A stretch of DNA of 20,967 nucleotides, taken from positions 1 to 20,967 of the IMG/VR virus record IMGVR_UViG_3300043470_000404; one strand, given 5' to 3'. The position numbers were made by a program, and so were the translations under genes. Position 1 is the stretch's first letter. Each line of letters opens with the position of its first letter. The DNA is from a virus. The notes beneath the pieces are model-generated. The model saw only the letters and a list, made by a program, of their open reading frames with translations. It ran no database searches and was not told where the DNA came from. Positions 4,383-20,967 of the stretch are shown here, piece by piece.

Positions 4383-5285
4383 ATGAGTGCATTTACAATT
4401 GGAGCTGACCCTGAGTTGTTTCTTCGGGAGAATGGTAAAGCAATTAGTGCTTTTGGAATGGTCGAAGGTACTAAAGAAAGTCCCCATAAAACTTCTAACG
4501 GAGCATACCAAGTAGACGGTATGGCACTAGAGTTTAACATTGACCCAGTTAGCACTGTTGGTGCGTTTGAACAGTTCAATATCAACATCATCAAAACTAT
4601 TCAAGAAATGAAGCAACGGGTATCTCAGAACAGTGATGTCAAGAAGTATACGTTCGCCATTCAACCTACTCAAGATTTTGATGAAAAGTACCTTGAGAGT
4701 CAGCCTGCTGCTGCGCTTGAATTGGGTTGTGACCCTGATTTTAACGCATACACTGGTGAAGAGAACCCTCGTCCAGACGGCACTCGCACTTTCCGTACCG
4801 CGGCAGGACACATTCACGTAGGATGGGGTGCCAACATTCCGACTGACAATGAAGAACACCGTGAAATTTGTAACAACTTTGTCAAGATGTTGGACGCTAC
4901 TGTAGGTATGTTCATGACGTTTATTGACCGCGACCCTCGTCGGCGTGAGATGTATGGTAAAGCCGGAGCATGTCGTTACAAACCATACGGAGTAGAGTAT
5001 CGGACACCATCTAACGTGTGGATTATTAATCGTGACCGCCGTGAAGTAATGTATACACTTGTTCAAATAGCCATTGGAAAGATGCGTAATGACATGTCTG
5101 TAATTGATGTCACTGGTTTGAACGAGGAAGAGATACAATTTGTGATAAACACAGGAGACTATAAGACAGCAAAACGTCTAGTGGACCGTCAATTAGGATT
5201 TGTACCAGTGTGGAAGAAGATTTGTGAAGACAAGCGTCTCGTGAATCCAGTAAAAGAAACTGTCGAAATTGAGGATGCGTTCTAA
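4383..5285 (+). CDS. phiEco32-type COOH-NH2 ligase (amidoligase, type 2)
   Basis: This 300-residue protein has the hallmark N-terminus GADPELFL (7-14), followed by the family's conserved acidic beta segment QVDGMALEFN (43-52), AAGHIHVGW (140-148) and the basic loop around GACRYKPYGVEYRTPSNVW (195-213). These Glu/His/Arg motifs match the glutamine-synthetase-fold carboxylate-amine ligases first noted in phage phiEco32. They use ATP to join a carboxylate to an amine through an acyl phosphate. The start at ATG 4383 has GGAAGG at 4371-4376. The stop overlaps the next ATG (TAATG at 5282-5287). It has its own place between the class II amidotransferase and a second, more distant amidoligase. The substrate is unknown; a glutamate- or peptide-containing product is inferred from family behaviour. 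Confidence 0.88.
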   Translation: MSAFTIGADPELFLRENGKAISAFGMVEGTKESPHKTSNGAYQVDGMALEFNIDPVSTVGAFEQFNINIIKTIQEMKQRVSQNSDVKKYTFAIQPTQDFDEKYLESQPAAALELGCDPDFNAYTGEENPRPDGTRTFRTAAGHIHVGWGANIPTDNEEHREICNNFVKMLDATVGMFMTFIDRDPRRREMYGKAGACRYKPYGVEYRTPSNVWIINRDRREVMYTLVQIAIGKMRNDMSVIDVTGLNEEEIQFVINTGDYKTAKRLVDRQLGFVPVWKKICEDKRLVNPVKETVEIEDAF

Positions 5286-20298: not shown

Positions 20299-20320
20299 TT
20301 GTTCTAGTGGAGTGATTAAA

Positions 20321-20719
20321 ATGCCTAAGGGTCCGCAAGGACAGAAACGACCTGCCGACGCCATCGCACGTGCTGTGATGGTGGCGCAGATCGCTACGGG
20401 TGAAATTGAAGATACAACCGGCGGGATTGGCCGTTCTGCTGGAGGTAAGGCTAGAGCAATGGTGCTTTCGCCTAAAAAACGCAAGGAGATAGCTAGCGCG
20501 GCGGCCAAGGCGCGTTGGCAGAAAAAGGAATTGGACATGAGTGAACTGAGCATCTTGAAAAGAGAGCTGTTCGGCGATTCGAGCAGCTCCATTTCTGACA
20601 TTAAATTTTATCCGGGTGAAAGCACCGAGTTCTCGCCGGATGATATTGCGTGCGCAATCCGCGCCACAATTAGTGATGTCGCACAAGGAAATGGCGAAGA
20701 TATTGACCTTTCGTTCTGA
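20321..20719 (+). CDS. Basic Ala/Lys-rich nucleic-acid-binding-like protein with an unrelated C-terminal half
   Basis: ATG 20321 has GGAGTG at 20309-20314; a GTG at 20312 is less likely. The 132-residue product begins PKGPQGQKRPADAIARAV and has GRSAGGKARAMVLSPKKRKEIASAAAKARW at about 37-66. I know this pattern from small alphaproteobacterial and plasmid proteins (KARAxxLSPxxRxEIAxxAAxARW) of unproven function, which look histone-H1-like. Family members usually end soon after ARW. Here an acidic, Ser-rich half continues, and the internal ATG 20537 has its own AAGGA at 20525-20529, so two products may be made. The gene is visibly richer in G and C than its neighbours, suggesting recent transfer. 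Its end forms a long hairpin with the next gene's leader. Confidence 0.75.
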   Translation: MPKGPQGQKRPADAIARAVMVAQIATGEIEDTTGGIGRSAGGKARAMVLSPKKRKEIASAAAKARWQKKELDMSELSILKRELFGDSSSSISDIKFYPGESTEFSPDDIACAIRATISDVAQGNGEDIDLSF

Positions 20720-20756
20720 ATAGTCTTAGAGGCTATCCTCAGAACGAAAGGTCAAT
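20702..20756. promoter_or_regulatory. Perfect 18-bp hairpin overlapping the stop codon and burying the next ribosome binding site
   Basis: TTGACCTTTCGTTCTGA at 20703-20719 pairs without mismatch with 20739-20755, and A20702 with T20756. An inner stem ATAGTC/GGCTAT (20720-20725/20731-20736) closes a TTAGA loop with two bulged C. The left arm contains the last codons and TGA of the gene before; the right arm contains AAAGG at 20747-20751, the ribosome binding site of the TTG start at 20759. It has no T-run, so it is unlikely to be a simple terminator. Ribosomes ending the first gene would open it. Confidence 0.85.
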
Positions 20757-20758
20757 TC

Positions 20759-20967
20759 TTGCCGTTTAAAGCACTTTATAATCGCAGACAGACTGAAGCT
20801 ACTTGGCTACCCTTGCAATGGTATGTCGATGACGCTCTAAATCTATCTTGGGTAGATGATGTCCAAATCAAACGGACTTCTGCCTTACCTAAAACACATC
20901 TTAGGGGCATGATTATCCGTCACAATACGGGCAACATGCCCCATGCTCTGACATTCACCTACTCAAT
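20759..20967 (+). CDS. Partial phage gene, unknown function, runs off the window
   Basis: TTG 20759 is the first start in a frame open to the end of the window, following AAAGG at 20747-20751 with 7-base spacing. Sixty-nine residues are visible, starting PFKALYNRRQTEATWLPLQW, then DALNLSWVDDVQIKR and ending HALTFTYS. They are globular and aromatic-rich, with no signal peptide or membrane span. I do not recognise the family. The frame reaches back to the previous stop at 20717-20719, so an ATA or other rare start cannot be excluded. The hairpin makes its translation depend on the gene before. Confidence 0.7.
   Translation, partial: MPFKALYNRRQTEATWLPLQWYVDDALNLSWVDDVQIKRTSALPKTHLRGMIIRHNTGNMPHALTFTYS

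Follow-up and report, generated by a model that had tools for sequence, protein, structure and literature searches.

A recurrent junction hairpin, probably from a transposon-cargo operon captured by a phage, with a probable role in coupling translation of two genes

Translational coupling by RNA unfolding has been established for other gene pairs including phage f1 VII-IX, MS2 coat-lysis and E. coli rpmI-rplT, in which the downstream ribosome site is hidden by a hairpin and the upstream stop codon is within reach of the left arm of that hairpin (PMC12548453). The spacing in these systems also lets a new ribosome bind while the first is still at the stop. The hairpin described here is itself a device of this known kind, with the ribosome site of the downstream gene hidden, the upstream stop within reach of the left arm and a spacing of 39 nt. 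It differs from the described RNA-unfolding systems in belonging to a mobile three-gene cargo, in having a stem sequence that varies from copy to copy and in being terminator-like in some copies.

The window, meaning the whole stretch of 20,967 nucleotides analysed (IMG/VR record IMGVR_UViG_3300043470_000404), carries the hairpin near its end between a 60-aa gene (gene 2) and an ORF with a TTG start (gene 3 relic) (Table 1). As the original prediction had it, the stem was perfect over 18 bp, with two fully complementary 18-nt arms separated by 19 nt, and both the AAAGG site and the TTG start were located. The predicted inner stem was also present, although the minimum free energy (MFE) structure gave 7 bp with one G-U pair rather than 6 bp. 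The left arm finishes, on its inner side, with the UGA stop codon of gene 2 (20717-20719). A bulged outer extension, absent from the original prediction, pairs about 20690-20701 with 20757-20767, and the nearly continuous duplex exceeds 25 bp. The MFE was -44.5 kcal/mol compared to a shuffle mean of -16.4 (z -8.8, 0 of 200 shuffles as low). Within the window this was the sole perfect stem of at least 11 bp (loop of 3-40 nt), and about 645 kb of related loci contained only two other distinct stems of at least 15 bp, its own copy aside, perfect stems of that length thus being very rare there. An unrelated perfect stem, 20 bp long and closed by a 3-nt loop, lies in the phage contig G002 (L097:1915-1957). 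A second contig, IMGVR_UViG_3300042296_000310 (47.5 kb), carries the same hairpin sequence and matches the end of the window exactly, which makes a single misassembly unlikely. The view that the structure does not resemble a terminator was upheld: there was no T-run on either strand, AATTCTTGCC follows 3' of the stem, and no intrinsic terminator (a GC-rich stem followed directly by a U-tract) was predicted around the insert. A search of Rfam gave no match. An integron attC site was considered and rejected, as bulges were present but the GTTRRRY/RYYYAAC ends were not found on inspection by eye.

Table 1. Positions of the insert features in the window
Feature	Position	Strand	Remarks
Gene 1, 72-aa AKARW-motif protein	20321-20536	+	GTG start at 20312 also possible
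Module common to window and G002	20503-20728	+	226 bp, 98% identity, blastn
Gene 2, 60-aa protein MSELSILKRELFGD...DIDLSF	20537-20719	+	ATG start, AAGGA at 20525-20529
Left stem arm	20702-20719	+	Final five sense codons of gene 2 plus its UGA
Inner stem-loop	20720-20736 (20720-20726 with 20730-20736)	+	MFE structure
2-nt bulge CC	20737-20738	+	3' of inner stem-loop
Right stem arm	20739-20756	+	Contains ribosome site AAAGG, 20747-20751
Gene 3 relic, TTG start (20759-20761)	20759-20965, past window end	+	Homology to L182 gene 3

The hairpin had been described as a phage intergenic structure, and this was not supported: it is part of a captured transposon-cargo operon and lies outside the phage backbone. 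The backbone gene upstream of the insert encodes a phage ribonucleotide reductase, and 3' of it the window phage has the ORF at 20312-20719, the hairpin and the TTG ORF. Inspected relatives, including L016 (92% protein identity), have the reductase gene followed by nothing or by a few small genes, and then mostly by a GC-rich terminator and converging genes. Such a terminator between the converging operons was present in relatives, but the window phage lacks it (L096:4980-5030). The module shared with G002, an unrelated phage contig, sits there in a different context. Homology between the two ends inside the hairpin loop at AGAGGCT and is followed in G002 by GACACTACC, leaving that contig with the left arm and loop and without the right arm.

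Gene 1 showed 47-55% identity over about 70 aa with small proteins on alphaproteobacterial plasmids, including about 51% with its homologue in the Sphingomonas contig L182, and matched phrog_2384 weakly. Gene 2 was 95% identical in phage G002, 65% in L182 and 58% in L184, and neither gene 2 nor gene 3 had a match in the phage and plasmid collections. The arrangement of the start of gene 2 varied: gene 1 runs in frame into gene 2 as a fusion in the window phage (20312-20719), ends just before the gene 2 start in L182, and in G002 the start of gene 2 overlaps an unrelated gene at ATGA. L182 contains homologues of gene 2 and of the TTG ORF in the order AKARW gene, gene 2, hairpin and gene 3, and searches with gene 3, by sequence and then by profiles, identified a dozen further bacterial copies. 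The insert is a remnant of a three-gene operon, so far unannotated, that is found in alphaproteobacteria and comprises gene 1 (AKARW), gene 2 (60 aa), the hairpin and gene 3. No description of the operon was found in the open-licence literature, and in the sources searched the operon, its carrier and the phage relic appear to be novel.

Downstream of the operon, an IS1-type transposase homologue was located in L182 (partial), L204, L207, L211 (at the contig end) and L213. The operon in L207 was flanked by 26-nt terminal repeats (GGTAGTGTCTCAGTTTGAATTT...) and an 8-bp target duplication, and that in L204 by a 12-nt shared end and an 8-bp target duplication. Inverted ends, 8-bp duplications and a DDE_Tnp_IS1 transposase 3' of the operon in L207 and L204 agree with IS1-family elements, which are defined by terminal inverted repeats, target duplications of 8-9 bp and an IS1 transposase. 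Compared to known IS1-family elements with passenger genes, the cargo here is AKARW-gene 2-gene 3, and both ends and the transposase have been lost from the phage copy. The same IS end sequence was present 5' of gene 1 in L098 and L213. Apparent IS1-family elements with this cargo were L207:4741-7197, L204 (reverse strand), L213:285-2909 and L182:4424-6254, while in L217, an Acidiphilium plasmid, the AKARW gene also accompanies other cargo close to an IS1 transposase, and in L098, a Hoeflea plasmid, it follows an IS end. An IS1595-type (ISXO2-like) transposase adjoins the operon in L205 and L214, suggesting transfer of the cargo from one transposon family to another. GACACTACC, the IS end in reverse complement, has its single copy in 19.9 kb exactly at the G002 module edge. 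At the window insert neither an IS end, within one mismatch, nor a transposase match was found. The phage copies are most simply read as relics of captured elements, the window copy being at most a relic. The operon would accordingly have been cargo of alphaproteobacterial IS1-family elements, some beside an IS1595-type transposase, acquired by the phage via such an element and then shortened.

Over 52 aa the gene 3 relic was 42% identical to its L182 homologue, and its TTG start and AAAGG site were homologous to the gene 3 starts of the bacterial copies L182 and L184. In the longer contig its reading frame ends at 82 codons (seen in L004/L096) compared to about 190 in bacterial homologues, the stop preceding the IrrE/CapP-like core, and its codon-usage score was between those of coding and non-coding sequence. 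The 82-aa ORF had been suspected to resemble a G002 protein, and this was not supported. Read-through of the gene 2 UGA into gene 3 was also rejected as not conserved, since the frames agree in the window but not in L182 (gene 2 at 5001, gene 3 at 5230); a first genome scan with the read-through query had given no match. The L182 gene 3 product, modelled with AlphaFold2 (mean pLDDT 85.8), resembled CapP (7t5t; Z 13.2, rmsd 3.2, 146 aligned) and PprI/IrrE (8sln; Z 9.9, rmsd 3.7, 139 aligned), and gene 3 is accordingly predicted to have the overall fold of IrrE/CapP-like (ImmA/IrrE) proteins. The zinc motif was degenerate, with KELMH or KEMMH in the aligned copies where ImmA/IrrE proteins have HExxH, the Pfam M78 score was below the family cut-off, and the neighbouring genes differed from those of CapH/CapP. 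PADLOC and NCBIfam gave no hits, a PDB sequence search no meaningful match, and a viral scan using the gene 3 alignment no match.

A hairpin at the gene 2/gene 3 junction was significant relative to shuffles in 11 of 14 bacterial operons, the window being left out of this count (Fisher p 6e-14, mean z -3.4). The stems of these bacterial copies have no sequence in common. Most bury the ribosome site or start of gene 3 and some are terminator-like instead. The mean z of 21 ordinary co-directional junctions from two alphaproteobacterial plasmids was -0.3, and within the operons themselves neither the gene 1/gene 2 nor the gene 3/transposase junctions were significant. With a control set that was small and gene 3 starts that were placed by eye, the gene 2/gene 3 junctions differed from all 28 control junctions together (Mann-Whitney p 5e-6). 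In part against the original proposal, the stem was missing from G002 and from the bacterial copies L184, L196 and L197, where the gaps are only 24, 8 and 11 nt. That the position recurs with a different sequence in almost all copies is good evidence that selection acts on the structure.

The region around the gene 3 start of the window (-15 to +3) had an unpaired probability of 0.01, consistent with a buried ribosome site. The left arm lies within the last codons of gene 2, where an upstream ribosome could open the hairpin; in silico, the cost of opening the gene 3 start dropped from 29.9 to 5.7 kcal/mol when the gene 2 stop was occupied, in a model in which the terminating ribosome covers RNA up to 13 nt past that stop. 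Similar drops were computed for L182, L190, L191 and L198. A ribosome at the gene 2 stop did not free the site in L185, L192 and L203 because their stems are farther from the stop. In the intact operon, free mRNA would fold and bury the gene 3 ribosome site, and a ribosome that is translating gene 2, or terminating there, would remove the left arm and permit gene 3 initiation. Gene 3 may require its dosage to be low or coupled. Gene 2 translation probably controls gene 3 in the operon family, a reading drawn from sequence and folding; for the window, as for most copies lacking a U-rich tail, coupling is the interpretation that fits best. Our preferred explanation, to which we assign a probability of about 0.6, is that the hairpin is the regulatory junction of a captured three-gene cargo in which gene 3 is coupled to gene 2. 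The original proposal that translation of the first gene opens the stem for the second thus held in part: comparison across the operon family, with its recurrent hairpins and the in silico opening, supports it well for that family, while the truncated phage gene 3 and several terminator-like relatives speak against it. The switch in the phage is probably vestigial and the hairpin a relic, since the phage gene 3 has been cut to 82 codons.

The terminator-like copies raise the alternative of a transcriptional role, in which the junction would be an attenuator or terminator that limits how much transcription continues past gene 2 into gene 3 and the transposase, and the window a version without the U-tract. 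U-rich tails are located directly past the stem in L182, L192, L194, L202 and L203, the last four of which look like terminators while L182 has both features, and phage relatives have a terminator in the same slot past the reductase gene where none was predicted in the window. Against this, the window and L185, L190, L191, L195 and L198 have no U-tract, and most of these tail-less copies have the ribosome site or start inside the stem, making a purely transcriptional account rather unlikely. As some copies have a terminator-like hairpin in the same place, restraint of gene 3 expression, either by coupling or by a terminator, may be the function shared across copies.

Coupling would be irrelevant if the phage stem did no more than stabilise the transcript end of the reductase-gene 1-gene 2 message or provide it with an RNase III site, and the length of the duplex, the broken phage gene 3 and the location of the hairpin at an operon end ahead of converging genes are in keeping with such a role. 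We consider it improbable, as it leaves unexplained the recurrent, unrelated hairpins in bacterial copies with an intact gene 3. A functionless origin of the right arm as a recent fold-back copy of the left arm by template switching would account for the right arm being a perfect inverted copy of the last gene 2 codons in the window and L195, and for the G002 homology stopping at the loop with no right arm. However, a deletion that stops at the element end GACACTACC accounts better for G002, most other copies also carry hairpins and such an origin would be compatible with a function, and this explanation therefore seems very improbable to us.

Two unrelated phages have gene 2, one of them also with gene 1, and no working gene 3. 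The operon could be a toxin-antitoxin-like or defence-like module in which the hairpin restrains a dosage-sensitive effector, gene 3; we regard this as a doubtful reading, and if it were true gene 2 would be a phage-borne antidote, since phages kept gene 2 without a working gene 3. The coupling reading makes the junction a switch that is directly testable, and the analysis has uncovered a previously unannotated mobile three-gene cargo with an IrrE/CapP-like protein. It also indicates that a phage can inherit an unusual hairpin as a fragment of a bacterial mobile element.
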